From assembly GCF_003751785.1 (NCBI RefSeq), contig NZ_RKIE01000001.1, positions 907,564-971,563 of the forward strand: a DNA stretch of 64,000 nt, read 5' to 3'. The stretch is from Frigoribacterium sp. PhB160 (GTDB lineage: Bacteria > Actinomycetota > Actinomycetes > Actinomycetales > Microbacteriaceae). This document shows, in pieces, positions 7,915 through 60,055 of the stretch (positions within the stretch are counted from its first letter, which is position 1; every line of letters starts with the position of its first letter). A program made the position numbers and the translations under genes. A model generated the notes under the pieces. That model did no database searches. It was not told the DNA's origin and worked only from the letters and a program-made list of their open reading frames with translations.

Positions 7915-7961
7915 GCCCGAGCCCGAGCCCCGGGCCCCTGGTTCGTGCCCGAGCGCACGAC

Positions 7962-7986
7962 GGCCCGGGTCGTGGCGACCCGGGCC
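7962..7986. terminator. Hairpin terminator between the DUF6177 pair and sdhB
   Basis: GGCCCGGGTCG (7962-7972) pairs perfectly with CGACCCGGGCC (7976-7986) around a 3-nt loop. The 11-bp stem lies between convergent genes and can serve both strands. Confidence 0.75.
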
Positions 7987-8020
7987 GGACGTGCGGAGGG
8001 AGGAGCCCTCGAGGTGCTGG

Positions 8021-8776
8021 CTAGGCCTTGCCCCGCAGGACGGCCTGCTTGACCTCGGCGATCGCCTGCGTCACCTGGATGCCGCGCGGGCACGCCTCGG
8101 TGCAGTTGAAGGTCGTGCGGCAGCGCCAGACGCCCTCCTTGTCGTTGAGGATGTCGAGGCGCACCTGCGCGCCCTCGTCCCGCGAGTCGAAGATGAAGCG
8201 GTGCGCGTTGACGATGGCGGCGGGGCCGAAGTACTGGCCGTCGGTCCAGAAGACCGGGCAGCTCGACGTGCAGGCCGCGCAGAGGATGCACTTCGTCGTG
8301 TCGTCGAAGCGCTCGCGCTGCGTGGCGCTCTGGATGCGCTCCTTCTCGGGCTTCGACGAGGCCATGAGGAAGGGCTGGATCTCGCGGTACGACTGGAAGA
8401 ACGGCTCCATGTCGACGATGAGGTCCTTCTCGAGCGGCAGGCCCTTGATCGCCTCGACGTAGATCGGCTGCGAGATGTCGAGGTCCTTGATGAGCGTCTT
8501 GCACGCCAGGCGGTTGCGGCCGTTGATGCGCATCGCGTCCGAGCCGCAGACCCCGTGGGCGCACGAGCGACGGAACGTCAGCGAGCCGTCCTGCTCCCAC
8601 TTGATCTGGTGCAGGGCGTCCAGCACGCGGTCGGTCGGCAGCACCTGCACGTCGAAGTCCTGCCAGCGCGGCTCGTCGTCGACGTCGGGGTCGAAGCGCC
8701 GGATGATCAGCGTCGCCGTGAAGGTGGGGACCGCGTCGGAGGCGGTGGGGGCGTTCTCGAGGACTGCGGAGCTCAT
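8021..8776 (-). CDS. sdhB: Succinate dehydrogenase iron-sulfur subunit
   Basis: The 251-residue electron-transfer subunit of complex II. It carries electrons from the SdhA flavin to membrane quinone. The [2Fe-2S] ligands appear in RRSCAHGVCGSDAM plus LACKTL. The [4Fe-4S] cluster lies in CILCAACTSSCP, and the third cluster motif in CRTTFNCTEACPRGI. The N-terminal 25 residues are an Ala/Thr-rich extension. The gene is last in the sdhC-D-A-B operon; its ATG at 8776 lies 2 nt after the sdhA stop codon. A hairpin at 7962-7986 follows. Nothing is missing from the cluster ligands. Confidence 0.96.
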   Translation of the reverse strand: MSSAVLENAPTASDAVPTFTATLIIRRFDPDVDDEPRWQDFDVQVLPTDRVLDALHQIKWEQDGSLTFRRSCAHGVCGSDAMRINGRNRLACKTLIKDLDISQPIYVEAIKGLPLEKDLIVDMEPFFQSYREIQPFLMASSKPEKERIQSATQRERFDDTTKCILCAACTSSCPVFWTDGQYFGPAAIVNAHRFIFDSRDEGAQVRLDILNDKEGVWRCRTTFNCTEACPRGIQVTQAIAEVKQAVLRGKA

Positions 8777-8778
8777 GC

Positions 8779-11120: not shown

Positions 11121-11573
11121 CTACTCCGAGAAGACGTTCATGAGGTGGCGGGGGGCGAAGCCGAGCATCAGCACGGCCCAGAGGCCGATGACGACCCAGA
11201 ACATGACGCGCTGGTGCTTCGTGCCGGCGCCCCAGAAGTCGATGAGGATGATGCGGAGGCCGTTGAGCGCGTGGAAGACGATGGCGGCGACCAGGCCGGT
11301 CTCGCCGAGGCCCATGATCGGGTTCTTGTACGTGCCGATGACGGCGTTGTAGGCCTCGGGGCTGATCCGCACGAGGGCCGTGTCGAGGATGTGCACCAGG
11401 AGGAAGAAGTAGATGCTCACGCCGGTGATGCGGTGGAGGACCCACGACCACATGCCCTCACGGCCGCGGTAGAGAGTGCCCTGGAAGCGCTTCGCCTTGC
11501 GGGGCTGCTCGATGGACGGCGCGCCGCCTCGTCCGGACGGATCCGTCAGTGTGCCCGTCGACTGCTCGGCCAT
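11121..11573 (-). CDS. sdhC: Succinate dehydrogenase cytochrome b556 subunit
   Basis: A 150-residue integral membrane subunit of complex II. The motif SWVLHRITGVSIYFFLLVHILD carries the Ser/Arg quinone-site residues and a His haem ligand, and HALNGLRIILIDF follows in helix 2. Three membrane segments are predicted. This is the first gene of the operon; the ATG at 11573 has GGAGG about 8 nt upstream. The promoter likely lies at 11656-11661 with a palindrome near the transcription start. Confidence 0.93.
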   Translation of the reverse strand: MAEQSTGTLTDPSGRGGAPSIEQPRKAKRFQGTLYRGREGMWSWVLHRITGVSIYFFLLVHILDTALVRISPEAYNAVIGTYKNPIMGLGETGLVAAIVFHALNGLRIILIDFWGAGTKHQRVMFWVVIGLWAVLMLGFAPRHLMNVFSE

Positions 11574-11637
11574 GAGCTGCCCTCCTCGGCTGGGGTGGTC
11601 GGCTGTGGTCAGGGAGGACAGCCGTGTCCACCGTGTG

Positions 11638-11650
11638 CGTTCTCAGAACG
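11638..11650. promoter_or_regulatory. 13-bp palindrome at the start of the sdh transcript
   Basis: CGTTCTCAGAACG is a perfect inverted repeat around a central C. It lies just downstream of the predicted sdh -10 box and covers the predicted transcription start. That is the position of a repressor operator, but the regulator is unknown. Confidence 0.4.
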
Positions 11651-11655
11651 TCCCC

Positions 11656-11661
11656 AGCATA
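11656..11661 (-). promoter_or_regulatory. -10 element of the sdhCDAB operon
   Basis: TATGCT on the minus strand lies 82 nt upstream of the sdhC ATG in the 125-bp gap. The resulting leader of about 75 nt contains the sdhC ribosome site. Confidence 0.5.
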
Positions 11662-11698
11662 CGGTGAGCGCGCGACGGTCGTCGTGCGACGGCCGGGT

Positions 11699-12868
11699 CT
11701 AGTTCGATGTCGAGAGAAGGCCGGGGCGCGACCGGCCGCGGCCCACGGGACGCGCCGCGGCGACCGCGTCGGCGTAGTGGCCGAGCAGCTCGTCGCCGAG
11801 GCGTTCCCAGGTGCGGCCGACGACGGCCCGCCGCCCGGCCTCGCCGAGCCGCGCCCGGAGGCCCGGGTCGTCGACGAGGGTCCGGACCGCTCGCCGCAGG
11901 GAGTGGTCGTGCAGCGGGTCGACGAGGAATCCGTCCTCGCCGTGCCGCACGAGGTCGAGCGGCCCGCCCGCCGCGGGCGCGACGACGGGCACCCCGCTGG
12001 CGTGCGCCTCCTGGACCGTCTGGCCGAAGGTCTCGGTCGCGCCCGTGTGCACGAAGACGTCGAGGGCCGCGTACGCGTCGGCGAGCTCCTCGCCGTGGAG
12101 GGGACCGGTGAAGACCGGGTCGAGGTGGCGGAGGCGACGTCGCAGCGACGGGAGCGCCGGGCCGCCGCCGACCACGACGAGGCGCATGCCCTCGACGGGC
12201 CGGAGCGCCGCGAGCCGCTCGACCTGCTTCTCGGGGGCGAGGCGTCCCACGTAGCCGACCAGCGCCTCCCCGGGTCGTGCCCCGGCCGCCTCGCGGAACA
12301 GGCGGGCACCCTCGCCGGCGCGACGGTTCGGGTGGTACCGGACGGAGTCGACGCCGCGGCCCCAGGTGGCGAGCCTCTCGACGCCGGCCCGCTCGAGGTC
12401 GCGCCGCGAGCTCGTCGACGGCACGAGGGTGACCGTCGCCTGCTCGTGGAGGCGGCGGACGAGCCGCCACGCCACCGCCGAGGTGACCGGCCCCAGCCCG
12501 CTGGTCGCGGCGTAGCGCGCCACGTCGGTCTGGAAGACGGCGACGCTCGGCACGCCGAGCCGGGCCGCGGCGGCGATCGCGTGGCCGCCCAGCAGGAAGG
12601 GGGAGGCGACGTGCACGACGTCGGGCCGGAAGGCCGCCAGGGCGCCCGCCACCTGCGGCGACGGCAGCCCGACCGGGAACTGCCGGTACGCGACCGACGG
12701 CACGCGGACGACCCGGGCGCCGGCGTACGCGTCGTGGCCGCGGCCCGCCGGGGCGACGACGACGGCCTCGTGGCCCCGCCGCTCGAGGTGGTCGAGCACG
12801 CGGAGCACGCTGGTCGTCACCCCGTTCACGGTGGGCAGGAAGCTCTCGGTCACGATGGCGACCCTCAT
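11699..12868 (-). CDS. GT4 glycosyltransferase, alpha-mannosyltransferase (MgtA/PimB'-like)
   Basis: A 389-residue GT-B enzyme. The N-terminal half opens MRVAIVTESFLPTVNGVTTSV, the signature of actinobacterial GDP-mannose-dependent mannosyltransferases and of the related sulfoquinovosyl/glucuronosyl lipid enzymes. The C-terminal half has YVGRLAPEKQ and GATETFGQTVQEAHASG, containing the EX7E nucleotide-sugar motif. A role in mannosylating a lipid or glycolipid at the inner membrane face is likely. The divergent neighbour makes GDP-mannose, which supports the donor assignment. I chose ATG 12868 because GAGGAG lies 5 nt upstream; the GTG at 12874 overlaps that site. Confidence 0.8.
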   Translation of the reverse strand: MRVAIVTESFLPTVNGVTTSVLRVLDHLERRGHEAVVVAPAGRGHDAYAGARVVRVPSVAYRQFPVGLPSPQVAGALAAFRPDVVHVASPFLLGGHAIAAAARLGVPSVAVFQTDVARYAATSGLGPVTSAVAWRLVRRLHEQATVTLVPSTSSRRDLERAGVERLATWGRGVDSVRYHPNRRAGEGARLFREAAGARPGEALVGYVGRLAPEKQVERLAALRPVEGMRLVVVGGGPALPSLRRRLRHLDPVFTGPLHGEELADAYAALDVFVHTGATETFGQTVQEAHASGVPVVAPAAGGPLDLVRHGEDGFLVDPLHDHSLRRAVRTLVDDPGLRARLGEAGRRAVVGRTWERLGDELLGHYADAVAAARPVGRGRSRPGLLSTSN

Positions 12869-23358: not shown

Positions 23359-23402
23359 GACGACGGAGGGGCGGTGCCGGTCGGCACCGCCCCTCCGTCG
23401 TC
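23359..23402. terminator. Bidirectional hairpin terminator between EIIB and the phosphohexomutase gene
   Basis: A perfect 20-bp stem (23359-23378 with 23383-23402) and a GGTC loop, no T-tract, at a convergent junction. It shares 17 of 20 stem positions with the hairpin at 5225-5270, and the three differences are compensated on the other arm. Confidence 0.85.
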
Positions 23403-23417
23403 GTCGGACGCCCGGAC

Positions 23418-25112
23418 CTAGGCGAGCAGGGCCCGCATGCCGGCGTCGAGGTCGGCGACCGAGGCCTCCGCCGCGGCACGACGGGCGACGGCATCGCCCT
23501 CGGTGCTCGAGGAGTCGATGTAGACCTTGAGCTTCGGCTCGGTGCCGCTCGGGCGCACGATGACGCGCGAGCCGTCGGTGAACCAGTAGCGGAGCACGTC
23601 GCCGGCGGGGAAGTCGCCGAACCCGTCACGGAAGTCGTCGACGTGGTCGACGTCGTGCGTGCCGACCCGGGCCGGGGGAGACTGGCGAAGGCGGGCCGTC
23701 AGCGCGGCGATCCGGTCGAGGTCGTCGACGCGGACGGAGATCTGCGACGAGGCGTACGCGCCGAACTCGGCGTCGAACGCGACCAGGTGCTCGGCGACGC
23801 TCGAGCCCGCCGTGTGCAGCTCGGTCGCGAGGGCGAGCAGGTCGACCGCGGCCGAGATGCCGTCCTTGTCGCGCACCTTGTCGGGGTCGACGAGGTAGCC
23901 GAGGGCCTCTTCGTAGCCGTAGAGGAGGCCGCCGACCCGCGAGACCCACTTGAAGCCCGTGAGGGTGTCGGCGTAGTCGAGGTCGTAGCGCCGGGCCACC
24001 TCGCGGAGGGCGGGGGAGGAGACGATGCTCGCCGCGAGCGTGCCGTCGGCGTCCGCCGCCCGGGCGCGCTCGGCCGCACGCCAGCCGAGCAGGGCGCCGA
24101 CCTCGTTGCCGCTGAGGCGCCTCCAGCCGTCCGACGTCGGCACGGCGACGGCGAGCCGGTCGGCGTCGGGGTCGTTGGCGATGATCAGGTCGGCCTCGAC
24201 GCGGTCGGCCGTCGCGAAGGCGAGGTCGAGGGCGCCGGGCTCCTCCGGGTTCGGGAACGCCACGGTCGGGAACGCCGGGTCGGGAGCCGACTGCTCGGCC
24301 ACGGGGATGGGCTCCATGAAGCCCGCGGTGGCGAAGACGCGCCGCGCGACCTCCCACCCGACGCCGTGCATCGCCGTGTAGACGACGCGGGGCTGGCGAC
24401 CCGTGGCCGACGTGCCCGCCAGGGCGGCCGTCCGGCTGACGTACTCGCCGACGAGGTCGTCCCCGCTCTCGCGGTAGTCGTCCGACCGCGTCAGCTCGCC
24501 GATCGGCCGCGTGGCCGCGTCGTCGATGCAGCGGGCGATCTCGGCGTCGACCGGCGAGACGATCTGCGACCCGGCGTCGGCGCCGCCGAGGTAGACCTTG
24601 TAGCCGTTGTCCTGGGCGGGGTTGTGGCTCGCCGTCACCATGACCCCGGCGCTCACGTCGAGATGCCGCACCGCGAAGGCCAGCACGGGCGTCGGCAGCG
24701 CCCGGGGCAGGACGATCGCGCGCACGCCGGCGCCGGTCATGATCTCGGCGGTGTCGCGCGCGAAGACGTCGGAGTTCGTGCGTCCGTCGTAGCCGATGAC
24801 GATCGAGGGCTCGCGCTCGCGCCCGAGGAGGAAGGCCGCGAACCCGGCCGCCGCCTGGGCGACGAGCACGCGGTTCATGCGGTTCGGCCCGGCGCCGAGG
24901 GCACCGCGCAGCCCGGCCGTGCCGAACGCCAGCCGCGTGGCGAAGCGGTCGCGCAGGTCGGCGAGCGATGCGTCGTGGCCGGCACGCGCCTCCTCGATCA
25001 GGGCGTCGAGCTCGGCACGGGTCCGGTCGTCGGGGTCTTGGTCGCGCCAGGCGGCGGCCGCCGAGAGCAGCGCCGAGGCGTCGTCGTGCCCGGCGGCCCG
25101 CTCGTCGCTCAC
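23418..25112 (-). CDS. Phospho-sugar mutase (phosphopentomutase/phosphomannomutase, PGM family)
   Basis: A 564-residue alpha-D-phosphohexomutase-superfamily enzyme. TAGLRGALGAGPNRMN near residue 60 is the opening motif, and VMVTASHNPAQDNGYKVY carries the phosphoserine. DPDADRLAVAV is the metal loop, TLTGFKWVSRVGG near residue 365 the sugar-specificity loop, and RPSGTEPKLKVY the phosphate-contact motif. The 550-580 residue length matches the PGM2/PgcA subgroup, which often acts on ribose- or deoxyribose-1-phosphate. That fits its overlap (4 bp) with purine nucleoside phosphorylase, which produces such substrates. Substrate choice is inferred from context. Confidence 0.9.
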   Translation of the reverse strand: MSDERAAGHDDASALLSAAAAWRDQDPDDRTRAELDALIEEARAGHDASLADLRDRFATRLAFGTAGLRGALGAGPNRMNRVLVAQAAAGFAAFLLGREREPSIVIGYDGRTNSDVFARDTAEIMTGAGVRAIVLPRALPTPVLAFAVRHLDVSAGVMVTASHNPAQDNGYKVYLGGADAGSQIVSPVDAEIARCIDDAATRPIGELTRSDDYRESGDDLVGEYVSRTAALAGTSATGRQPRVVYTAMHGVGWEVARRVFATAGFMEPIPVAEQSAPDPAFPTVAFPNPEEPGALDLAFATADRVEADLIIANDPDADRLAVAVPTSDGWRRLSGNEVGALLGWRAAERARAADADGTLAASIVSSPALREVARRYDLDYADTLTGFKWVSRVGGLLYGYEEALGYLVDPDKVRDKDGISAAVDLLALATELHTAGSSVAEHLVAFDAEFGAYASSQISVRVDDLDRIAALTARLRQSPPARVGTHDVDHVDDFRDGFGDFPAGDVLRYWFTDGSRVIVRPSGTEPKLKVYIDSSSTEGDAVARRAAAEASVADLDAGMRALLA

Positions 25113-28559: not shown

Positions 28560-29801
28560 ATGGGAGACATGCAGGGCCGTGAGGTCGAACTGGACGTGAC
28601 CGGCATCGCACACGGGGGCATCTCGGTGGCGCGCCTCGACGGCCGGGTGGTGTTCGTGTCCGACACCCTGCCCGGCGAGCGGGTGGTCGCGCGCGTCACT
28701 GACGACCGGAAGAAGTCGTTCTGGCGCGCCGAGACGGTCGCCGTGCTCGAGCCGAGCGAGCACCGCCGCGAGCACGTCTGGTCGGCCGCCGCCCTCGACG
28801 TCGCGCCCGAGCGGCGGGCCGGAGGCGCGGAGTTCGGCCACATCGCCCTCCCGCACCAGCGCGCCCTGAAGGCCCAGGTGATCCGTGACGCGCTCGTGCG
28901 CACCGGGGGCATGGGCGAGGCCGAGGCCACGGTCGAGGTCGCCGCGCTGCCGGGCGACGACGAGCGCGGCGGCACCGGCTGGCGCACGCGGGTGCGGCTG
29001 CACGTCGACGCCGACGGCCGCCCGGGCCCCTACGCCGTCCGCTCGCACACGGTCGTGCACGTCGACGACCTGCCCCTGGCGACCCCGGAGGTCGCCGAGG
29101 CGGCGCCGCTCGGCGACGCGTTCCCCGGCGAGCAGCACGTCGACGTGCTCGCCACGAGCGACGGCGGCGCCCGCCTGATCATCGGCGACCAGGCCCGCAG
29201 CACGGTCACCGAGCGCGTCGGCGACCGCGAGTTCCAGCTCGACGACCGCGGGTTCTGGCAGGTCCACCGCCACGCGGCCGAGACGCTGTCGGCCGCCGTC
29301 CGCGACCTCGTCGACCCCGAGGCGTTCGACCCGCGCGCCGCGAACCTCGACCTCTACGGCGGCGTCGGGCTCCTCGCCGCCGCGCTCGGCGACGAGTTCG
29401 GGCCGGCCACCCGGGTCACGAGCGTCGAGAGCGACGAGCGCGCGACCGAGCACGCGTCGGAGAACCTCGCCGAGTGGCTCGGGGCCTCCGCCGTCACGGG
29501 GCGCGTCGAGCGCTGGATCCGCCAGGTCGCCTCGCAGGCGGGCGCCGCCGAGCGCAGCCGTCACCGGGCCGCGACCGTCGTCCTCGACCCGCCGCGCTCG
29601 GGCGCCGGCCGCGAGGTCGTCGAGGCGATCACCGAGCTCGCCCCGGCCCAGGTCGTCTACGTCGCGTGCGACCCCGTCGCCCTCGCCCGCGACGTCGCGC
29701 TCTTCCGTGACGGCGGGTACGACGTGGACGCCCTCCGCGCCTGGGACCTCTTCCCGAGCACCCACCACGTCGAGACGGTCGTGCGGCTCCGACGCCGCTG
29801 A
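28560..29801 (+). CDS. TRAM-domain class I SAM-dependent RNA methyltransferase (TrmA/RlmD family)
   Basis: A 413-residue uracil-C5-type RNA methyltransferase. Residues 1-60 form a TRAM OB-fold (VTGIAHGGISVARLDGRVVFV). The Rossmann domain carries NLDLYGGVGLLAAAL for SAM, LDPPRSGAGREVV and YVACDPVALARD, where Cys370 is the predicted nucleophile. DLFPSTHHVETV closes the family pattern. Unlike RlmD there is no N-terminal four-Cys Fe-S motif. The RNA target (tRNA or 23S rRNA) cannot be read from the sequence. The start is ATG 28560, 6 nt after CAGACT; the ATG at 28569 is an alternative. Confidence 0.88.
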   Translation: MGDMQGREVELDVTGIAHGGISVARLDGRVVFVSDTLPGERVVARVTDDRKKSFWRAETVAVLEPSEHRREHVWSAAALDVAPERRAGGAEFGHIALPHQRALKAQVIRDALVRTGGMGEAEATVEVAALPGDDERGGTGWRTRVRLHVDADGRPGPYAVRSHTVVHVDDLPLATPEVAEAAPLGDAFPGEQHVDVLATSDGGARLIIGDQARSTVTERVGDREFQLDDRGFWQVHRHAAETLSAAVRDLVDPEAFDPRAANLDLYGGVGLLAAALGDEFGPATRVTSVESDERATEHASENLAEWLGASAVTGRVERWIRQVASQAGAAERSRHRAATVVLDPPRSGAGREVVEAITELAPAQVVYVACDPVALARDVALFRDGGYDVDALRAWDLFPSTHHVETVVRLRRR

Positions 29802-49242: not shown

Positions 49243-49279
49243 CGAGGGGCCCGCGGTGCACGGCACCGCGGGCCCCTCG
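49243..49279. terminator. Hairpin terminator after rmlA
   Basis: A perfect 17-bp stem (49243-49259 with 49263-49279) and an ACG loop lie between the convergent rmlA and GT2 genes. Confidence 0.85.
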
Positions 49280-50441: not shown

Positions 50442-52403
50442 GTGACGGACGAGCCGCCGAGCGTGGCTGCGCGCACGCGCCGCGCGCTTCACCGGGCCGC
50501 CGTCGCCGTCGCCCGGCGGACGGCGCCGCCGGTCCCGGAGCCCGGCCCCGCGCCTCCCCGGCACGTCTCCGTCCCCCTGCCCGCGGGCGAGCCGCCCCGG
50601 GTGCGCGCCGACCTCGACGACGGCGTCGTCGACCTCGTCGTGACGATCGACGCCGACGACCTCGAGCAGCGGCCCGCGGTCGTCGAGGCGCTCGCCGCCC
50701 TCGCCGAGGCCTGGGGCCCGCGGGTGACGGCCGTGGTCTACGAGGCCGAGGAGGCGGTCGGGCGCACGCACGCGCCTCCGCGCCTGCCGGCGTCGCTTCC
50801 GCTCGTGGAGCCCGAGGTCGCGCGGGGCTGGGCGGCGGGCCTGGCCCGCACCTACCCGGCGTTGACCGGCGCTCGTGCCGTGGTCGTCGACTCGAGCGTC
50901 GAGATCGGCCTCGAGGCCCTGTGGGCGCTCGTCGACCACGTCCGCGGCGACGTGGTGCTCGCGCAGGCCGTCGTGCGACGGACGAACGAGACGATCGCCA
51001 GCGCGGGGGCGTTCTTCGTCCCGGGCGGCGCCGCCCCGGGAGCGCTGCTGGCCGGGTTCCCGCCGGAGGACCTCGAGGCCGTGGGCGCCGTCGCCGTCAC
51101 CGCGGCCGACTCTCCGGTCTTCGCCGTGCGCACCCGCGACCTCGTCCCGGCGCGGGCGACCGTCGACCAGCCGCTCTCGGTCACCAGCCTGTCGCTGGCC
51201 GTCTCCCGCTCGGCGGAGGCGCGGACGGCGGGAGCAGGCCGGGTGCTGTCGGTGCCCCTCGGGCGGGTGCACCGCCTCCGCGAGCCCGAGCGCCGGTCGG
51301 ACCCCGTCGCGCTCGAGCTCGTGCAGTCGTGGGACGGGATGGTCGACGACGCCGCCGGAGGGCTGCTCGGGCGCCTCGGGCTGCGCCTCGAGGGGGCGAC
51401 CGTGCTGCCGACCGGGCCGGTGCCCGCCCGCGTCGCCCGACCCGTCGTCGGGCGCCTCGAGCCGGTGCGCGTGCACGAGGCCGCCCCGCGCCTCCGGTGG
51501 TCGCTGAAGACGGCCGCCTGGGCCGGCGCGCGCGGCGACGACTGGGGCGACGTCTTCTTCGCTCACGACCTCGCGACCGCCCTGCGGGGCCTCGGGCAGG
51601 CCGTCGTCGTCGACAACCGGGAGTCGAGCGTCCGACCGGAGTCCGAGCACCTCGACGACGTCTCGCTCGTCCTGCGCGGCCTCGACCGGGTGCCGCTCCA
51701 CCCCTCGGCGGTGACGGTGCTCTGGGTGATCAGCCACCCGGACCGCGTGTCGGACGAGGAGCTCTCCGGGTACGACCTCCGCTACGCCGCCGGCCGCGCC
51801 TGGGCGGAGCGGACGACGGCGAGGACGGGCCTGCCGGTCGGCACCCTGCTCCAGGCGACGGCGCCGGAGCGCTTCCACCCCGGCCCGGTCGACCCCGAGC
51901 TGGCCTCCGACGTGCTCTTCGTCGGCAAGACGCGCGAGGTGTTCCGGCCCGTCGTCCGCGACGCCGTCGAGGCGGGCCTCGACCTCAGCGTGTGGGGCGA
52001 GGGCTGGTCGAGCTTCATCGCACCCGAGACCGTGCGGGGGGAGTTCCTGGCGAACGACCGCCTCCCCGCGGCCTACCGCAGCGCCCGCGTGGTGCTCAAC
52101 GACCACTGGGCGGACATGGCGCGCGAGGGCTTCGTCTCCAACCGGGTCTTCGACGCCGTCGCCTCGGGCGCGCTCGTCGTGAGCGATGAGGTCGAGGGGC
52201 TCGTCGACGTCTTCGGCGACGGCGTCCGCACCTACCGGACCGTCGACGACCTGCGCCGACTCGGCGCCGAGTCGAGGGCCGACCGCGCGGTGGAGGCGCG
52301 GCTGGCCGCCGCGGCCGTGGCCCGCGACCACTCCTTCGCTCAGCGGGCCTCGCGGCTGCTCGCGGACGTGCTGACGACGGCGCGGTCGCGCTCGGGTCGC
52401 TGA
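50442..52403 (+). CDS. Large two-part glycosyltransferase (CgeB/Glyco_trans_1_2-like C-terminal domain)
   Basis: A 653-residue soluble protein. Residues about 60-330 resemble a GT2-like region (DLVVTIDADDLEQRPAVVEAL, an AVVVDSSVEIGLEALW strand) but lack a clear DXD, so this half may be degenerate. The C-terminal 300 residues are a GT-B transferase: DWGDVFFAHDLATALRGLGQ, VTVLWVISHPDRVS, SDVLFVGKTREVFRP and VLNDHWADMAREGFVSNRVFDAVASGALVVSD, typical of the CgeB-like group. GTG 50442 has GAGGGAG 6 nt upstream. Its last 64 bp overlap the convergent DUF2142-like gene. Confidence 0.8.
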   Translation: MTDEPPSVAARTRRALHRAAVAVARRTAPPVPEPGPAPPRHVSVPLPAGEPPRVRADLDDGVVDLVVTIDADDLEQRPAVVEALAALAEAWGPRVTAVVYEAEEAVGRTHAPPRLPASLPLVEPEVARGWAAGLARTYPALTGARAVVVDSSVEIGLEALWALVDHVRGDVVLAQAVVRRTNETIASAGAFFVPGGAAPGALLAGFPPEDLEAVGAVAVTAADSPVFAVRTRDLVPARATVDQPLSVTSLSLAVSRSAEARTAGAGRVLSVPLGRVHRLREPERRSDPVALELVQSWDGMVDDAAGGLLGRLGLRLEGATVLPTGPVPARVARPVVGRLEPVRVHEAAPRLRWSLKTAAWAGARGDDWGDVFFAHDLATALRGLGQAVVVDNRESSVRPESEHLDDVSLVLRGLDRVPLHPSAVTVLWVISHPDRVSDEELSGYDLRYAAGRAWAERTTARTGLPVGTLLQATAPERFHPGPVDPELASDVLFVGKTREVFRPVVRDAVEAGLDLSVWGEGWSSFIAPETVRGEFLANDRLPAAYRSARVVLNDHWADMAREGFVSNRVFDAVASGALVVSDEVEGLVDVFGDGVRTYRTVDDLRRLGAESRADRAVEARLAAAAVARDHSFAQRASRLLADVLTTARSRSGR

Positions 52404-53785
52404 CGACCGCCGATCGACGCGCCCCGCCAGGTCGCGACGCCGTGCGCGGCGACGGCCGTGACCACCCCGACGGCCGAGAGCGCGAACGCGACCCGGGCCA
52501 CCGCCAGCACCGAGGCCGGTCCGACCGCGACGGAGAGGTCGACCGCCGTCGTGTACGCGGCGAAGACCCCGGCCGCCCAGACGGCGACGAGCACGACTCC
52601 CGCGCGTCCGCCCCGGCAGAGCGCCCATGCCGTGACCACCGCGATGACCGGCACGACGGGCAGCGAGTAGCGGGTGTTCGCCGCGCCGCCGCCGGCGACG
52701 TAGTTGAGCTGCATGACGACGGTCAGCGCCGTCACGGCCGCGGCCATGACGACCACGAGGACGTCGCCGCGGGACGGCCGGAGGCGCCGGGTCGCCACCA
52801 GCAGGACCGCCGCCACGAGCGCCAGGCCGAGGGGCACGAGGAGCGCGAGCCAGGGCAGCGGGTCCGCCCGGTCGACGTCGTACCGATAGAGGGAGAAGAG
52901 GCCCGTCCAGAAGGTCGGCGCCTGGACGACCTCGACGACCGGGTGGGTGTTCCGGCCGAGGTTGGCGGCGGACCAGTCCGGGTGGCCGCCGGTCACCGTG
53001 CCGGTGAGCGCGACGTTGCGGGCGTAGAACCAGCCGACGGCCAGGAGAGGGGCCACGACCAGGCCGAGCGCCGCGGCGACGCGTGCGAGGAGCTCGCGCC
53101 GGACGGGTCGGCCCCGGTGCGCGGCGACCACGAGGGCGCCGGCCATGGCGACGACGAAGATGCCGAACGAGAGCCGGCTCGCCAGGCCGCCGGCCGAGGT
53201 GAGGGCGAGGAGCACGCCGAGGCGCAGGGTCAGCCCGCCGCGCACGACGGCCGCGGCGAGCCCGAGCGCGAGCGCCGCGAACGTCACGGCGAGGAGGTCG
53301 TTGTAGATCGAGCCGCCGACGAGCACCACCATGCCCGTCATGGCCGTGACGAGGGCCGCCACGCCCGCGACCCGGCGGTCGCCGGGCACGAGCTGGCGGG
53401 CCGCCCACCAGGTGGCGAGGACGGTCGTGCCCGCCACGAGCGCGTTCACGGCGCGGCCGGCGAGCACGGCGGCGTAGAGGTGGCCGCCGTCGGCGAGCGG
53501 GCCGACGACCGGGGCGAGCAGGAGGTAGAAGAGCGGCGGGTGCTGCGAGACCCACTGGACGGGCGGCACCGGCCCGAAGGGCTGGACGAGCTCGACCCCT
53601 CGCTCGAAGACGGGCAGGTGGCCGTGCCAGACCTGCAGGGCGTAGTCGAGGTGCGCCGTCTCGTCCGCCGTCGACAGGAGCGGCGTCGAGGTCGCCCGGG
53701 CGATCGACGCCGCCACGACGACGACGAGCGCCGCGACGAGCACCAGGTCGGTGCGCGCGGCGACCCGACGGGCCAGGCCCGTCAC
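52340..53785 (-). CDS. DUF2142/GT-C-like polytopic membrane protein
   Basis: A 481-residue protein with about ten membrane helices. An extracytoplasmic loop near residue 35 reads STADETAHLDYALQ, followed by QWVSQHPPLFYLLLAP. This is the acidic 'DE..H.D' and 'HPP.YY' pair that marks DUF2142 and related GT-C transferases using polyprenyl-phosphate sugars. It resembles the two DUF2142 paralogs at 56-59 kb in layout but shares no identical block. The GTG at 53785 overlaps the stop of the upstream flippase-like gene by 4 bp. Its 3' end overlaps the convergent large glycosyltransferase by 64 bp. Confidence 0.78.
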   Translation of the reverse strand: MTGLARRVAARTDLVLVAALVVVVAASIARATSTPLLSTADETAHLDYALQVWHGHLPVFERGVELVQPFGPVPPVQWVSQHPPLFYLLLAPVVGPLADGGHLYAAVLAGRAVNALVAGTTVLATWWAARQLVPGDRRVAGVAALVTAMTGMVVLVGGSIYNDLLAVTFAALALGLAAAVVRGGLTLRLGVLLALTSAGGLASRLSFGIFVVAMAGALVVAAHRGRPVRRELLARVAAALGLVVAPLLAVGWFYARNVALTGTVTGGHPDWSAANLGRNTHPVVEVVQAPTFWTGLFSLYRYDVDRADPLPWLALLVPLGLALVAAVLLVATRRLRPSRGDVLVVVMAAAVTALTVVMQLNYVAGGGAANTRYSLPVVPVIAVVTAWALCRGGRAGVVLVAVWAAGVFAAYTTAVDLSVAVGPASVLAVARVAFALSAVGVVTAVAAHGVATWRGASIGGRQRPERDRAVVSTSASSREAR

Positions 53786-54861: not shown

Positions 54862-56016
54862 ATGGTCGTGCGGATCCTCGCGTTCGGAACCTATCAAGTC
54901 GAGAACCACCCGCGGGTCGCGGTCCTCGCCGACGGCCTCGCCCGGGCCGGGCACGAGGTGGCGGAGGCCAACGTGCCCCTCGGCCTCTCGACCGCCGAGC
55001 GCGTCGCCCTGCTCGGCCGGCGCACCGGGGCCCTGCGGCTCGGCCTGCGGCTCGTCCGCGCGTGGGCCCGGCTCGCCGTGCGGGCCCGCCGCGAGGCACG
55101 TCGGTCGCGTCCGGACGTCGTGCTCGTCGGCTACCTCGGGCACTTCGACGTGTGGCTCGCGCGCCTGCTCTTCCCGCGGACCGTGGTCGTGCTCGACCAC
55201 CTCGTGTTCGCGGCCTCCACGGCGGCCGACCGCGGCGCCTCCGGATCGCTCCTGCAGCGCGCCCTCCGCCTGCTCGACCGGGGCGCGATCGCCCGGGCCG
55301 ACGTCGTCGTGGTCGACACCGCCGAGCACGGCGAGATGGTCCCCGCGTCGGCCCGGTCGAAGGTCGTCGTGGTGCCGGTGGGCGCCACGGACGCCTGGTT
55401 CGACGCGGCGTCGCCCGATCCGGGCGACGAGCCCGGCGACCGGCTCTCGGTGGTCTTCTTCGGCCTCTTCACGCCCCTGCAGGGCTCGGTCGTCATCGGC
55501 GAGGCGGCGGCACTGCTGGCCGACGCCCCCGTCGACCTCACGGTGATCGGGTCCGGGCAGGACCTCGCGGCCGCCCGGGCGGCCGCCGGCGGGTCGCCGT
55601 CGGTGACCTGGGTGCCCTGGGTGGAGGCGCGTGACCTGCCCGCCGTCGTGGCTCGGCACCAGGTCGGGCTCGGCGTCTTCGGCACCACCGACAAGGCCCT
55701 CAAGGTGGTGCCCAACAAGGTCTACCAGTGCGCCGCGGCCGGGGTGGCCGTCGTCACGAGCGACACCCGCCCGCAGCGCCGTGCGCTGAGGGACGCCGCC
55801 GTCTTCGTCCCGGCGGGCGACGCCCGCGCGCTGGCCGACGCGCTGCTCGGCCTGCAGCGCGACGCGGCGCTGCTCCGCCGTCACCGGGACGCCGCCCGTC
55901 GCGCGGCGGACGAGCGTTTCCGCCCGGAGACGTCGGTCGCGCCGTTGGCGGAGCGGCTCAGCACGACGGTGCGTCCGCGGCCGCGGCGGTCGTCGCGCTC
56001 GCCGGAGGGTCGCTGA
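54862..56016 (+). CDS. GT4-family glycosyltransferase
   Basis: A 384-residue GT-B enzyme. ILAFGTYQVENHPRVAVLADGLARAGHEV begins the acceptor domain, and VVFFGLFTPLQG and VPWVEARDLPAVVARH follow in the donor domain. KVVPNKVYQCAAAGVAVVTSDT takes the place of the usual EX7E block. Some residues of that motif are replaced, as in several polysaccharide GT4 proteins. Starts possible at ATG 54862 or GTG 54868; GGGGAG spacing suits the latter slightly better. The last 59 bp overlap the convergent DUF2142 gene, an unusual 3' arrangement repeated from 52.3 kb. Confidence 0.82.
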   Translation: MVVRILAFGTYQVENHPRVAVLADGLARAGHEVAEANVPLGLSTAERVALLGRRTGALRLGLRLVRAWARLAVRARREARRSRPDVVLVGYLGHFDVWLARLLFPRTVVVLDHLVFAASTAADRGASGSLLQRALRLLDRGAIARADVVVVDTAEHGEMVPASARSKVVVVPVGATDAWFDAASPDPGDEPGDRLSVVFFGLFTPLQGSVVIGEAAALLADAPVDLTVIGSGQDLAAARAAAGGSPSVTWVPWVEARDLPAVVARHQVGLGVFGTTDKALKVVPNKVYQCAAAGVAVVTSDTRPQRRALRDAAVFVPAGDARALADALLGLQRDAALLRRHRDAARRAADERFRPETSVAPLAERLSTTVRPRPRRSSRSPEGR

Positions 56017-57559
56017 CCCGGCCGACGGCGCGCCAGACGAGCGTGCAGGCCGTGACGACGGCCACGGCGACGACCGCGGCGAGGACGGCGAACGCCGCGG
56101 CCGGGACGGGCAGCGACTGCCCGACGGTGAGCGTGCCGACCGAGGCCGGCTCGCCGACGGTGCCCGGGAAGAAGCCCGACACCGCCACCCACAGGCCGTA
56201 GGCCGCGAGGGCGGGGGCGAGGACGACCGCCGTGCGGGCCGTCCGCCGGCGGCCGGGCGCCGTGGCCGCCAGCCGCCGCCAGGCGACGGCGCTGAGGGCG
56301 ACGAGCACGACGAGCGCGGGGTAGAGGTAGCGGCCCTGGACGCCGTAGACGCCCTGGGTCTGGTCGTAGGTGTTCCAGCCGTTGCCGAGCATGGCCGCGG
56401 CGATGACGACGGGGAGGACCGCGAGGAGGACGACCGCCCGACCGCCCCGGACGCGGCGGAACGCCCAGCACGCGACGACGAGCAGCGCGACGACGGTCAG
56501 GCTGTCGCTGACGATCGGGCTGATCGGGAACTTGGCGCGCCCGAGCTGGCCCCAGAACGACGACGAGACGCCGTCCCAGAAGGTCGCGGTGAACACGCCG
56601 AGGTCGGGGCCCTCGCCGGCCGGCCACGGAGTCGGCGGGCGCTGCTCGATCAGTCCGTTGGGTTGGAGGGTGCCGGTGGTGGTGAGGTTGTGGATCCACC
56701 ACCAGGCGCCGAGGGCGGCGGTGGTGGCGCCGACGGCGAGGGTGCGGAGGGCTCGTCGGGCGAGGGGGAGGGTGGTGTCGCCGAGGAGGAGGGCGAGGGC
56801 GACGAAGGGGATGGCGGGGAAGGCGGTGCCCTTGGTGGCGAGCGCGAGGCCGAGGGCGGTGCCGAGGGCGAGGTGGGTGCGCCAGGTGCGGTCGCCGGTG
56901 ATGGTGCGGGTGGTGAGCCAGACGGTGACGGCGCCGAGCAGGATGATCGGGGCGTCGCTGGTGACGGAGGAGCCGATCTGGGCGAGCTGGGGGACGGCGA
57001 GGAGGGTGGTGGCGGCGACGATCGCGGTGCGGGGGGATCGGGTGAGGCGTCGGACGGTGGCCCAGGTGAGCAAGGGGAGCGGGGCGACGAGGGCGACGCT
57101 GAGGAGGCGGAGGGCGAGGACTCCGAGGTCCCAGCGGTGGTGGGTGAAGTCGACGGCGTCGAGGACGGCTCCGGCGAGGGCGTAGTACGTCGGCGGGTGC
57201 TGCGTCATCTGGTTCACGAAGTCGTGGTCGCCCGGGGCGGCCTCGAGCAGGGTGCCGTACGACGAGCGGTCGGCCGGCGGGATGTCGTAGTTCGTCACCC
57301 GGGCGAGCTCCGAGGCGGCGAGGTTCTGCGCCTCGCCGGGAGGGGGCCAGCCCTCGTCGAGCGCGAGCCGCACGGCGGCGTCCCAGTGGGTGAACTCGTC
57401 GGGGGCCTCGAACATCGGCGTGAGCACGGCCCAGAGCGTGAGGAGGAGCGCGAAGGCGGCCGTGACGACGGCGACCACGACCCGCTCGGGACGCGAGGCG
57501 GCGGGGGCGGCGGCGCGTGCGGGTACGAGTGCGGCCTCGGAGGCGCGGGTGCCGCTCAC
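55958..57559 (-). CDS. DUF2142-family polytopic membrane protein A
   Basis: A 533-residue protein with about eleven membrane helices. LTPMFEAPDEFTHWDAAVRL and MTQHPPTYYALAGAVLDAV carry the family motifs in the first loops, placing it with GT-C-like proteins of envelope glycan loci. Residues about 115-303 are encoded by a 567-bp block that appears identical to one in the next gene, while the N- and C-terminal parts differ strongly. The GTG at 57559 overlaps the neighbouring paralog's stop by 4 bp. Its 3' end overlaps the convergent GT4 gene by 59 bp. Confidence 0.85.
   Translation of the reverse strand: MSGTRASEAALVPARAAAPAASRPERVVVAVVTAAFALLLTLWAVLTPMFEAPDEFTHWDAAVRLALDEGWPPPGEAQNLAASELARVTNYDIPPADRSSYGTLLEAAPGDHDFVNQMTQHPPTYYALAGAVLDAVDFTHHRWDLGVLALRLLSVALVAPLPLLTWATVRRLTRSPRTAIVAATTLLAVPQLAQIGSSVTSDAPIILLGAVTVWLTTRTITGDRTWRTHLALGTALGLALATKGTAFPAIPFVALALLLGDTTLPLARRALRTLAVGATTAALGAWWWIHNLTTTGTLQPNGLIEQRPPTPWPAGEGPDLGVFTATFWDGVSSSFWGQLGRAKFPISPIVSDSLTVVALLVVACWAFRRVRGGRAVVLLAVLPVVIAAAMLGNGWNTYDQTQGVYGVQGRYLYPALVVLVALSAVAWRRLAATAPGRRRTARTAVVLAPALAAYGLWVAVSGFFPGTVGEPASVGTLTVGQSLPVPAAAFAVLAAVVAVAVVTACTLVWRAVGRVSDPPASATTAAAADAPSC
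56652..57218 (-). repeat. 567-bp direct repeat, copy 1 (core of DUF2142 gene A)
   Basis: By direct reading it matches 58250-58816 at every base I compared, offset 1598 bp. It encodes 189 residues from VNQMTQHPPTYY to TTTGTLQPNGL. Almost every codon ends in C (GCC, CTC, GTC, ACC), giving a strong G excess on the plus strand, while the flanking parts also use CTG, GTG and GCG. The ends do not coincide with gene boundaries. Confidence 0.93.
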
Positions 57560-59124
57560 GAGGCGGCCGCCGTCTCGGGGGTCGCCGCGACGGGCGCCGG
57601 TACCGGCGGACCTGCCCGGCCGACGAGCCGCCACGTCGCCACGCCGGCGGATGCCGCGACGAGCGCGAGGACGACCATCGCGGCGAGCAGGGCGGGCCCC
57701 CCGACGGGAGTCGTCACGAGCAGGTTCGCGAGGCCGGGACGGGTGACCTCGAGGTCGCTCTGCTCGAAGAAGCCTCGGTAGGCGACGCTGGCGCCGTAGG
57801 CGCCGACGAGGGGGGCGGCGACGACCATGGACCGCCCGACCCGGCGACGCGCCTCCTCGTGGGTGACGAGGCGGAGGCCCGCGACCGCCAGCAGCGCGGC
57901 CAGGGCGACGAGAGACCCGAACAGGTACCGGCCCTGGGCCCCGGAGACCTCCTGCGTGCGGTCGTAGGAGTCGAAGTTGTTGTGCAGGAGGACCAGCAGG
58001 GTGATGAGCGGGAACGACGCGAGCAGCCACGATCGGGCGGCCGACCGGCGCCCGCGGAACGCCCAGCCGGCGACGAGCGCGAGGCAGCCCACCGTCAGGA
58101 CGTCGGTGAGGATCGGGGTCATCGGGTACTCCAGGCGGCCGAACTGCCCCCAGAACGACGACGACAGTCGCGACCACTCCGTGTCGAGGAAGAAGCCGAG
58201 GTCGGGGCCCTCGCCCGCCGGCCAGGGGTTGGGCGTCGACGAGCGGGGGAGTCCGTTGGGTTGGAGGGTGCCGGTGGTGGTGAGGTTGTGGATCCACCAC
58301 CAGGCGCCGAGGGCGGCGGTGGTGGCGCCGACGGCGAGGGTGCGGAGGGCTCGTCGGGCGAGGGGGAGGGTGGTGTCGCCGAGGAGGAGGGCGAGGGCGA
58401 CGAAGGGGATGGCGGGGAAGGCGGTGCCCTTGGTGGCGAGCGCGAGGCCGAGGGCGGTGCCGAGGGCGAGGTGGGTGCGCCAGGTGCGGTCGCCGGTGAT
58501 GGTGCGGGTGGTGAGCCAGACGGTGACGGCGCCGAGCAGGATGATCGGGGCGTCGCTGGTGACGGAGGAGCCGATCTGGGCGAGCTGGGGGACGGCGAGG
58601 AGGGTGGTGGCGGCGACGATCGCGGTGCGGGGGGATCGGGTGAGGCGTCGGACGGTGGCCCAGGTGAGCAAGGGGAGCGGGGCGACGAGGGCGACGCTGA
58701 GGAGGCGGAGGGCGAGGACTCCGAGGTCCCAGCGGTGGTGGGTGAAGTCGACGGCGTCGAGGACGGCTCCGGCGAGGGCGTAGTACGTCGGCGGGTGCTG
58801 CGTCATCTGGTTCACGTCGGCCGTCGTGCCCGGGTGGGCGGCGAGGAGGCCGCCCCAGCTCGGGCGGGCGTCGCGGGGCACCGTGCCGAGCGAGTCGCGG
58901 GCGGCCTGGCTGGCCTGGAGGAAGAGCGCCTCGCCGGCCGGCGCCCACTCGCCGGTCGTCGTCAGCGTCACCGCGGCGTCGACGTGGACGACCTCGTCGG
59001 GGGCCTGGAACATCGGCGTGATGAGGGCCCACACCACCAGCAGGACGCCGAAGGCCGCCGTCACCGACGTGACGGCGGCCGCCTCGAGCCGGGACGTCGC
59101 GGGACGCCCCGGCTCAGTCGCCAT
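57556..59124 (-). CDS. DUF2142-family polytopic membrane protein B
   Basis: A 522-residue paralog of the preceding gene with the same membrane layout: LITPMFQAPDEVVHVDAAVTL near residue 40 and MTQHPPTYYALAG near 108. The middle 189 residues are identical to protein A; the N-terminal 100 and C-terminal 230 residues are only distantly similar, including the extracytoplasmic loop. The ATG at 59124 overlaps the stop of the GT2 gene by 11 bp, so it belongs to the long minus-strand operon that begins beyond the right edge. Confidence 0.86.
   Translation of the reverse strand: MATEPGRPATSRLEAAAVTSVTAAFGVLLVVWALITPMFQAPDEVVHVDAAVTLTTTGEWAPAGEALFLQASQAARDSLGTVPRDARPSWGGLLAAHPGTTADVNQMTQHPPTYYALAGAVLDAVDFTHHRWDLGVLALRLLSVALVAPLPLLTWATVRRLTRSPRTAIVAATTLLAVPQLAQIGSSVTSDAPIILLGAVTVWLTTRTITGDRTWRTHLALGTALGLALATKGTAFPAIPFVALALLLGDTTLPLARRALRTLAVGATTAALGAWWWIHNLTTTGTLQPNGLPRSSTPNPWPAGEGPDLGFFLDTEWSRLSSSFWGQFGRLEYPMTPILTDVLTVGCLALVAGWAFRGRRSAARSWLLASFPLITLLVLLHNNFDSYDRTQEVSGAQGRYLFGSLVALAALLAVAGLRLVTHEEARRRVGRSMVVAAPLVGAYGASVAYRGFFEQSDLEVTRPGLANLLVTTPVGGPALLAAMVVLALVAASAGVATWRLVGRAGPPVPAPVAATPETAAAS
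58250..58816 (-). repeat. 567-bp direct repeat, copy 2 (core of DUF2142 gene B)
   Basis: Same block as 56652-57218, in the same orientation and reading frame. Homology breaks sharply at both ends (after the Asn codon of VNQM on one side and after PNGL on the other), which suggests gene conversion rather than simple tandem duplication. Confidence 0.93.
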
Positions 59125-60055
59125 ACCGTTGGAGCTTCTGCAGGTCGAGCTGCTCCTCGGCGAGGGTGCGGTTCAGCCTCGTGAGGTCGGCGACCACGCC
59201 GATGACGACCGCCAGCAGTGCCGTGATGATCAGCAGCACCCCCAGCAGCAGCGACTGCAGGTGGTCGCCCCCCGGGTCGACCCGCAGGAGCACGAGGTAG
59301 CGGACGAAGGGCACCAGGCCGCAGGCGGCCAGCACGGCGCTGATCCAGGCGAAGAGCGCCATCGGGCGGTACATGAGGTAGACCCGCACGATGGCGGACC
59401 CCGACATGAACATGTGCTGCCAGATGTTGCTGAACAGCCGCGACTCGCGCGTCTTGGGGTTGGTCGTGATCGGGATGCTCGTCAGCGCGAGGCGCTTGTA
59501 GCCGGCCTGCACGATCGTCTCCATGCAGTAGCTGAAGCGGGTGACGATGTTGAGCCGGATGAGCGAGTACTTCGAGTAGGCGCGGAAGCCGCTCGCGGCG
59601 TCGGGCAGGTCGAGCCCGGCGGCGCGGCTCGCGACCCAGCTGCCCGTCGACTGCATCAGGCGCTTGAAGCGCGAGAAGTGCTCGATGGTCTTCGTCTGGC
59701 GGTCGCCGATCACGATGTCGGCGGTGCCGGCGACGATCGGCTGGACCAGCTCGGCGATCTGCGCCTGCGGGTACTGGTTGTCGCCGTCGGTGTTCACGAC
59801 GATGTCGGCGCCGTTCAGCAGCGCGTAGTCGACGCCGTCGCGGAAGGAGCGCGCGAGGCCCATGTTGCGGGTGTGCCGCACGAAGTGGGTCACCCCGTGC
59901 GCGCGGGCGACCTCGACGGTGCGGTCGGTGGACCCGTCGTCGATGACCAGCACGTGGATCTCGTCGATGCCGTCGATCTGCGTCGGGATCGAGTCGAGGA
60001 CGTCCCCGAGGGTCGCCTCCTCGTTCAAGCAGGGCACCTGGACGAACAGCTTCAC
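59114..60055 (-). CDS. Membrane-anchored GT2 (dolichol-phosphate-mannose synthase/GtrB-like)
   Basis: A 313-residue transferase that probably loads a sugar onto polyprenyl phosphate. KLFVQVPCLNEEATLGDVLDS is the GT-A start, LVIDDGSTDRT the donor loop and VNTDGDNQYPQAQI the metal-binding DXD. ASGFRAYSKYSLIRLN and SIPITTNPKTRESRLF follow. Two C-terminal membrane helices (about residues 220-285) anchor it, followed by a short cytoplasmic tail. Its product is a natural donor for the GT-C-like DUF2142 proteins encoded immediately downstream. The GTG at 60055 has GAGGTG upstream. Confidence 0.9.
   Translation of the reverse strand: MKLFVQVPCLNEEATLGDVLDSIPTQIDGIDEIHVLVIDDGSTDRTVEVARAHGVTHFVRHTRNMGLARSFRDGVDYALLNGADIVVNTDGDNQYPQAQIAELVQPIVAGTADIVIGDRQTKTIEHFSRFKRLMQSTGSWVASRAAGLDLPDAASGFRAYSKYSLIRLNIVTRFSYCMETIVQAGYKRLALTSIPITTNPKTRESRLFSNIWQHMFMSGSAIVRVYLMYRPMALFAWISAVLAACGLVPFVRYLVLLRVDPGGDHLQSLLLGVLLIITALLAVVIGVVADLTRLNRTLAEEQLDLQKLQRYGD

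Follow-up and report, generated by a model that had tools for sequence, protein, structure and literature searches.

The window analysed here, a stretch of 64,000 nucleotides from Frigoribacterium sp. PhB160, contains a tandem pair of membrane-protein genes, designated A and B, next to a gene for a GT2 family glycosyltransferase (Table 1). The GTG start of gene B overlaps the TGA stop of gene A (GTGA), and the ATG of gene A is overlapped by the stop of the upstream GT2 gene, whose product is probably the maker of the lipid-linked sugar donor. A and B are the sole two PF09913 (DUF2142) matches in the genome, with scores of 46.9 and 47.8 bits against a curated cut-off of 30.1, and both also exceed the cut-offs of PF13231 and PF02366. 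The AlphaFold2 model of gene A (pTM 0.82) has a predicted GT-C fold: its best Foldseek match is ArnT (5f15, E 2.3e-6), and all 13 matches with E <=0.001 are GT-C enzymes or complexes containing one, at modest TM-scores (0.37-0.48, query-normalised). Judging from the Pfam matches and this model, the two genes probably encode GT-C glycosyltransferases.

Table 1. Coordinates of the gene pair, its repeated core and the neighbouring gene within the window.
Feature	Position	Strand	Remarks
GT2 family glycosyltransferase	59114..60055	-	PF00535 E 6.7e-23; start codon chosen by us
Gene A: DUF2142/GT-C membrane protein, probable glycosyltransferase	57556..59124	-	522 aa, ATG start
Gene A N-terminal flank: first helix and first loop (PDE motif), non-homogenised	58817..59124	-	
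Homogenised C/A-skewed core, gene A copy	58250..58816	-	about residues 104-292
Gene A C-terminal flank, non-homogenised	57556..58249	-	
Gene B: DUF2142/GT-C membrane protein, probable glycosyltransferase	55958..57559	-	533 aa, GTG start
Gene B N-terminal flank, non-homogenised	57219..57559	-	
Homogenised C/A-skewed core, gene B copy	56652..57218	-	189 codons; 567/567 identical to 58250-58816
Gene B C-terminal flank, non-homogenised	55958..56651	-	

The preliminary description had reported an identical core inside both DUF2142 genes, and base-by-base comparison bears this out: at an offset of 1598, the ungapped comparison gave no mismatch over 567 bp. The borders, said to be abrupt and to lie within both genes, are indeed so, since the exact match is not extendable by one base at either end. 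Self-comparison identified this core as the sole repeat longer than about 100 bp in the window, and full-length core matches occur at only two places in the 3.34-Mb genome (among the 40 of 585 candidates scored). Outside the core, A and B share about 62% DNA identity. The flanks, which had been called weakly similar, are moderately similar instead, with DNA and protein identities of 63 and 51% on the N side and 58 and 45% on the C side. Synonymous sites are also identical in the core, whereas pS in the flanks is 0.35-0.48, and a chance origin of the 567-bp identity is therefore excluded. The flanks are plausible, putative determinants of acceptor or partner specificity.

The tandem pair was found in one of the 15 other genus genomes searched, that of PhB116 (hereafter, A1 and B1 are the genes of the window genome, A2 and B2 those of PhB116). 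The PhB116 pair, too, is identical over a core, here 571 bp long, whose 5' border is shared with the window pair and whose 3' border lies one base further. The cores of the two species differ by about 13%; divergence within each genome is zero (95% upper bound about 0.5% per pair), less than 4% of the 0.139 between species. In the core tree, A1 pairs with B1 and A2 with B2, whereas the flank tree unites A1 with A2 (99/99) and B1 with B2 (100/99). Because flanks cluster by gene and cores by genome, the core has been homogenised repeatedly in each lineage, by recurrent intragenomic gene conversion with near-identical borders. The recent conversion proposed for the middle of the genes thus stands in part: confinement of conversion to the middle is supported by synonymous identity, conflicting core and flank trees and sharp borders, but a single recent event is wrong, because PhB116 carries an identical core of its own between almost the same borders. 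The two genomes compared show no swapping of blocks, which had been envisaged between related strains: flanks of A type cluster with A, those of B type with B.

No homogenised core was seen in eight further within-genome pairs (the comparison left out both L027 copies), in which core identity is 55-70% and the flanks are less conserved still. A third Frigoribacterium-like pair was not found at 1e-60 among 398 relatives (at most three candidates scored per genome), nor were DUF2142 relatives found on plasmids at 1e-10. Apparent long exact matches in L020, L021, L022 and L025 proved to be artefacts, the ORFs having been read back into the preceding gene.

The core is also extreme in composition. 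Its third-position A+C is 0.86-0.87 in the four Frigoribacterium genes (0.868 in the gene B copy), while it is 0.50-0.62 in 24 homologues (z >9); against the same homologues, A+C gave z of 5.1 and 2.8 at codon position 1, and of 2.8 and 0.8 at position 2. This extreme is limited to the core and absent from the flanks, and at both borders the switch in composition coincides with the switch in identity, within about 10 codons on the 5' side. On the coding strand, GC skew is -0.42 in A1/B1 and -0.36 in the other core, and TA skew is +0.02 in A1/B1 and +0.175 in A2/B2; relative to the homologues (TA skew about +0.28, from base fractions), the core is shifted towards A. Codon usage in the core is foreign to the genome sample, where the two highest of 2208 windows for C3/(C3+G3) fall mostly on the gene A core. 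Usage of optimal codons is disfavoured as a cause, because two codons that are rare in the genome sample, GGA (3 of 13 Gly) and CGA (4 of 12 Arg), are enriched in the A1 core (small counts, and hardly so in A2) and none of four rplB-locus ORFs is C-rich. No C-rich homologue was present among the 24 examined, which came from 14 genomes; 13 of the 18 non-Frigoribacterium family genomes with a match were fetched, and the remaining five lie outside the sample. L015, L016 and L017 were excluded as the same or nearly the same loci as L019, L021 and L020, and the short L034 fragment was dropped. The preliminary description had missed this strong bias.

Sorted by substitution class, the changes in the core run from keto to amino bases on the coding strand. 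In the A1 core, log2 asymmetry is 2.02 for G>C, 1.35 for G>A, 1.46 for T>C and 1.58 for T>A, with all bootstrap intervals above 0, whereas the intervals for G>T (-0.58) and A>C (-0.14) span 0 (five of the 24 homologues were excluded as distant: L034, L035, the divergent L027 copy and both L022 copies). Since the G/T and A/C classes are balanced, pure avoidance of G or preference for C is disfavoured for A1. A1 fits a bias limited to the keto/amino classes; in the A2 core, G>A is non-significant, its interval including 0 (0.58, -0.15 to 1.24), and G>T is non-neutral (-1.15, -1.91 to -0.35). T>C is raised in the flanks as well (A1 0.69, B1 0.72).

The biased classes match the specificity of NucS, which is reported to recognise dG-dG, dG-dT and dT-dT (PMC11551744). 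A NucS_C match is present in both genomes (the window genome and PhB116) and a MutS_V match in neither. In oligonucleotide recombination, NucS reportedly rejects such mismatches and spares nearby NucS-inactive ones (PMC11551744), and it is described as suppressing recombination of diverged, but not of identical, 517-bp repeats (PMC5290159). Deletion of nucS impairs gene conversion in Haloferax (PMC11276520), and a 2026 preprint suggests that NucS repair is reduced during mycobacterial recombination (PMC13061034). In the parts of the literature consulted, no paper was found that links NucS to GRINS (skewed repeats found in polyketide synthase genes) or to strand asymmetry in conversion bias. 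The replication skew of the chromosome is too weak in the sampled stretches, so two single-contig relatives served to place the fork, by way of dnaA and a marker; genes A and B run head-on to it, which for the window would fit one fixed incoming strand, such as the nascent lagging strand.

The explanation that we favour, with somewhat less than even confidence, is recurrent and directional intragenomic conversion, from keto to amino, with NucS/EndoMS as the mismatch filter. In either genome, the core of the tandem overlapping GT-C genes is copied repeatedly between the two. The flanks would be too diverged to recombine and would be kept different by separate functions, and the borders would therefore stay in place. 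Conversion would be directional, C and A on the coding strand replacing G and T wherever the copies differ, and over many rounds this could skew the core towards C and A, nonsynonymous sites included. As the filter, NucS/EndoMS, the actinobacterial mismatch endonuclease that attacks G-G, G-T and T-T, would be the most likely candidate. Suppose that the strand coming in from one copy is usually its coding strand: a keto base that it places opposite an amino site of the recipient copy would form a keto-keto mismatch and be removed, and an amino base would form an amino-amino mismatch and pass. Points against this explanation are the A2 values for G>A and G>T, the raised T>C in the flanks, the preprint suggestion of reduced NucS repair, GRINS in groups where we would not expect NucS, the G/T and L076 A/C values, plasmid orientations and KS-domain results given next, and the presence of the pair in only two species.

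Skewed repeats in actinobacterial polyketide synthase (PKS) loci were examined as well. All six show the four keto/amino classes with one sign each; G/T is non-neutral in these repeats (0.6 to 1.4), and A/C is -0.8 in L076. KS baselines were restricted to third-position A+C of 0.53-0.66. On the linear PKS plasmids, if replication starts at their centre, the skew would be opposite in three of the four skewed loci with a clear arm (L066, L068, L076) and would agree in one (L079). Among 87 KS domains, identity to the nearest copy is not correlated with skew (rho 0.096, p 0.38). The L073 KS pair, 92% identical, is unskewed; three of nine KS domains deviating by more than 0.2 have no copy of at least 90% identity in the stretch fetched, and for the most extreme, L079_37596 (third-position A+C 0.04), the nearest copy in that stretch is 62% identical. 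Nostoc L080 and Janthinobacterium L081, which we take to bear MutS, yielded no repeats of at least 88%.

These results bear on a second explanation, a quite serious contender, in which conversion is recurrent and biased as above and the bias comes from elsewhere, such as strand-asymmetric resection, errors of the polymerase in recombination synthesis, or an unknown property of GRINS. Recurrence and bias are themselves observed, the G/T class is non-neutral in the PKS repeats, and some extremely skewed KS domains lack a close copy in the fetched stretch. GRINS are, moreover, reported from outside actinobacteria (PMC10394414), where we would not expect NucS. Against this explanation, the classes coincide with the published mismatch preferences of NucS, and NucS, unlike MutS_V, has a match in each of the two genomes. 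Import of the core from a C-rich donor, followed by a single copying into the second gene, would account for the foreign codon usage but is very unlikely: both genes of both species have the core within nearly the same borders and yet with different sequences, and none of the 24 homologues is C-rich, within the sampling given above. Had the core been imported once, before the two species separated, its copies should not now be identical within each species yet different between them, and the excess of C at synonymous sites ought to fade with time. We consider an assembly artefact, in which near-identical cores were collapsed to one consensus and used twice, just as improbable. The identity was read from assemblies, but two separate assemblies with different core sequences give the same picture on contigs of 1.9 and 1.39 Mb, and collapse can at most turn near-identity into identity and cannot create skew. 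Least probable of all is strong selection on protein or codon usage (a donor-binding module, translation) keeping the cores alike, since the greater conservation of the core in the eight other pairs amounts to only 55-70% identity, selection on protein leaves the identical synonymous sites unexplained, and the codon usage described above (GGA and CGA in A1, the rplB-locus ORFs) is against it.

Returning to biased conversion with NucS as the filter, a wider and more speculative reading, which we think possible but rather unlikely, is that skewed self-homogenising repeats of actinobacteria are a footprint of NucS, its mismatch specificity acting on the incoming strand as a one-way ratchet from keto to amino. 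If so, codons and amino acids would be rewritten and repeats locked into ever easier mutual conversion, a mismatch-repair enzyme thereby shaping protein sequence directionally. The original GRINS paper is said to have regarded the origin of the repeats and the reason for their skew as unknown; the reading would explain that origin in NucS-bearing bacteria and predict GRINS wherever tandem paralogues convert. The pair is a small and clean example from nature: in two species, two genes share a sharply bordered core, and their nearly unbiased flanks serve as a built-in control. It allows the substitution classes to be told apart and points to a single enzyme, one for which deletion strains of laboratory actinobacteria can be made. 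In the core, dN is about 0.15 and dS about 0.11, and in converting genes such a dN/dS can mimic positive selection.

Among known proteins, DUF2142 is the closest named family of genes A and B, and ArnT (GT83) and PMT have the fold and Pfam matches in common with them. In lactococci and relatives, DUF2142 proteins (WpsI, WpsJ) are proposed to be polysaccharide polymerases or transferases (PMC12599335). Among known repeats, GRINS are described as sharing >80%, often >90%, identity with a second stretch in their own cluster (PMC10394414, PMC9899208), with a length of 500 bp or more in one account (PMC9899208) and of about 1 kb in another (PMC10394414), and as occurring in cyanobacteria, firmicutes and some eukaryotes too (PMC10394414). 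Like them, the core is a local, near-identical coding repeat (100% over 567 and 571 bp), strongly skewed, with recoded protein; gene conversion, to which GRINS are held to be subject, recurs here according to the core and flank trees of two species, and the same four keto/amino classes appear in the six PKS repeats. GC skew (-0.42 and -0.36) exceeds 0.25, whereas TA skew stays below the 0.25 threshold and passes the 0.15 form (absolute) only in A2/B2, with a sign opposite to that of GC skew. Unlike GRINS, the core lies in membrane GT-C proteins (DUF2142/GT-C host genes) and not in polyketide synthases, with a single copy in each of two distinct genes, is above 500 bp but short of about 1 kb, and has nearly the same borders in two species. 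Gene families other than PKS are reportedly mentioned in the original GRINS abstract. Concerted evolution by gene conversion is known from rRNA operons and mycobacterial paralogues; such tandem paralogues resemble the core in identity within genomes and divergence between species, but here only the middle third is homogenised, with sharp shared borders and a strand-asymmetric bias. GC-biased gene conversion also occurs in bacteria and, like the process at the core, fixes changes directionally through conversion, but the bias of the core runs from keto to amino on one strand and not from AT to GC.

Comparison of two adjacent DUF2142/GT-C genes of the window, gene A and gene B (copies A1 and B1), revealed that positions 58250-58816 and 56652-57218 are identical at 567/567 bases, with the match ending at the adjoining base on either side. 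This core encodes residues ~104-292 of A, and in the predicted structure it extends from just ahead of helix 112-124 to just past the long helix 255-284. In Frigoribacterium sp. PhB116 (NZ_SOBE01000001.1), the second genome bearing the pair, the tandem genes A2 and B2 have 571 identical bases in common. The 5' border falls on the same base in both genomes. On the 3' side the PhB116 match runs on for one more base, completing the same leucine codon, and the core there is also longer by one codon. Between the species, the cores show 87% identity in DNA and 81% in protein.

Gene order of the locus in the window
Feature	Position	Strand	Remark
GT2 glycosyltransferase	stop at 59114	-	first of three in the order GT2, A, B
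Gene A	57556-59124	-	start overlaps the GT2 stop
Gene B	55958-57559	-	start overlaps the gene A stop

The genome of the window (3.34 Mb, 4 contigs) belongs to the same genus as PhB116. Both genes have Pfam matches above cut-off to DUF2142, PMT_2 and PMT. The closest fold match of the gene A AlphaFold2 model (mean pLDDT 75.8, pTM 0.82, input of 10 sequences) is ArnT, and every other match with E ≤0.001 is to a GT-C enzyme or a complex that contains one. Judging from operon order, fold and family, the GT2 product probably makes a polyprenyl-phosphate sugar, which A and B probably spend on different acceptors, with the common core as their shared part. DUF2142 proteins of lactococci and relatives are described as proposed cell-wall polysaccharide polymerases or transferases (PMC12599335). 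A predicted 481-aa membrane protein at 52343-53785 (- strand), with a QHPP motif as in GT-C enzymes and without Pfam match, is possibly a third, distant GT-C gene. Self-comparison of the window also detected near-perfect palindromes of 37-46 bp at 5225-5270, 23359-23402 and 49243-49279, which may be terminators.

The core differs sharply in composition from its surroundings. In a genome sample comprising 298 heuristic gene calls with 117,816 codons in total (gene B was not called), scanned in 2208 windows of 189 codons, C3/(C3+G3) averaged 0.616 (sd 0.059), and the top two windows lay mostly on the gene A core. Across all four Frigoribacterium genes the value is 0.856-0.867 in the core and 0.51-0.64 in the flanks, while the same region in 24 homologues from 14 other genomes gives 0.49-0.64. 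Composition and identity switch jointly at both borders, on the 5' side within about ten codons, and neither core has any T-ending codon. Codon position 1 is also shifted in the core (z 5.1 and 2.8), as is position 2 in A1 (z 2.8, against 0.8 in A2), which would explain the odd excess of dN (0.152) over dS (0.11); the low dS is probably due mostly to saturation at C. Elsewhere in the genome, a gene call at 7760-9578 of one fetched stretch (L046, G000:C2) has few G-ending and many A/T-ending codons, unlike the rest of the sample, and is perhaps an import or a false call.

The direction of change was analyzed against 19 homologues, five distant ones being left out. Mean counts for the A1 core (homologue-to-core : core-to-homologue; as the homologues share ancestry, these do not count independent events) were 79.8:19.6 for G>C, 22.9:8.9 for G>A, 27.6:10.0 for T>C and 5.9:1.9 for T>A, all with codon-column resampling intervals excluding zero, while intervals for G>T (3.9:5.8) and A>C (10.8:11.9) span it. 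For A2, zero lies outside the intervals of G>C, T>C and T>A and inside that of G>A; G>T comes out below zero, at -1.15 (-1.91 to -0.35). In the flanks every interval spans zero, apart from T>C, which is elevated in those of A1 (0.69) and B1 (0.72). The fraction of changes from keto (G/T) to amino (A/C) bases is 0.774 in A1 and 0.718 in A2, compared with 0.47-0.535 in control homologues.

The genes are present in 2 of the 16 genus genomes searched, the window's own included. In the core protein tree A1 groups with B1 and A2 with B2, while the flank tree joins A1 with A2 (99/99) and B1 with B2 (100/99); the A and B groups are not sisters there, a part with weak support. Therefore the duplication predates the separation of the species, and the cores became identical only later, in each lineage. 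With zero differences within each pair and 0.139 substitutions per site between species, each lineage last homogenised its cores during roughly the final 4% of the divergence (95% bound, clock assumed). Two such recent events with nearly equal borders argue for repetition. Of ten pairs compared within genomes, the two from Frigoribacterium alone are homogenised; in the remaining eight, identity is 55-70% in the core and 48-65% in the flanks. In Frondihabitans PhB188 (L021), a second repeated pair (9593-10230 and 11154-11791, 75% DNA identity) directly follows the DUF2142 pair, and tandem repeat units, short and 94-96% identical, lie close to the Curtobacterium sp. 9128 DUF2142 gene (L018, 12144-12293).

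The most specific candidate for the bias is NucS, the actinobacterial enzyme whose reported substrates are dG-dG, dG-dT and dT-dT; it refuses these mismatches in oligonucleotide recombination on the lagging-strand template, and NucS-inactive changes nearby can survive (PMC11551744; PMC8228993). For 517-bp repeats, NucS is also reported to suppress recombination when the copies have diverged but not when they are identical (PMC5290159). Each of the two genomes has a NucS_C match, and neither has a MutS_V match. If the incoming strand were usually the coding strand of one of the copies, its keto bases would be rejected and its amino bases let through, so that four classes would be biased and two neutral. 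Should the incoming strand anneal to the lagging-strand template, the genes would have to run against the replication fork. Judged from dnaA and a marker at ~10 kb distance in two relatives assembled as one contig each (shared gene order and replication symmetry assumed), the fork runs in the + direction and the genes lie on the - strand, which fits this variant as one bit of evidence. Another agent may underlie the bias. Two observations speak against NucS: GRINS, the skewed, self-homogenising repeats of polyketide synthases (PKS), are reported from cyanobacteria, firmicutes and some eukaryotes (PMC10394414), and work on paralogues in M. tuberculosis, available as a preprint, suggests less repair by NucS in the course of recombination (PMC13061034). 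Among actinobacterial PKS loci on linear plasmids, assuming a central plasmid origin, the lagging-strand rule would fail in L066, L068 and L076 and hold in L079, L070 being too near the centre to tell. Recurrent biased conversion stands without NucS.

With GRINS defined as in PMC10394414 and PMC9899208, we analyzed 87 KS domains in 14 actinobacterial plasmid loci, from 226 plasmid records with a match. Eight have a copy of at least 90% identity in the same stretch, and six of these have a strong keto excess (third-position A+C 0.27-0.34, median 0.591), both from L073 being the exceptions. Over all 87 domains, skew and copy identity were not correlated (rho 0.096, p 0.38); three of the nine deviating by >0.2, including the most extreme (0.04), have no copy of at least 90% in the ~41-kb stretch. 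In six skewed repeats (L066, two in L068, L070, L076 and L079; L068 and L070 are similar clusters), the four keto/amino classes share one sign in each; the coding strand is enriched in keto bases in five of them and in amino bases in one. The A/C class stays within 0.4 in five of the six (-0.8 in L076), while G/T reaches 0.6-1.4 and is not neutral. In three duplicates with less skew (L072, L073, L078), the four classes are weakly biased, with one sign (0.1-0.9). In L079 (pSCATT, NC_017585.1), a 1131-bp repeat of a Streptantibioticus PKS region (23539-24669 and 28609-29739, 99.9% identical) has the strongest skews among the repeats listed (GC +0.55, TA +0.60), and a nearby KS domain at 37596 has only 4% A/C-ending codons and lacks a close copy within that stretch. 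The TA skew of the core (+0.02 in the window, +0.175 in PhB116) falls short of the absolute value for GRINS. Although the window core is for that reason not assigned as a member, it works like one.
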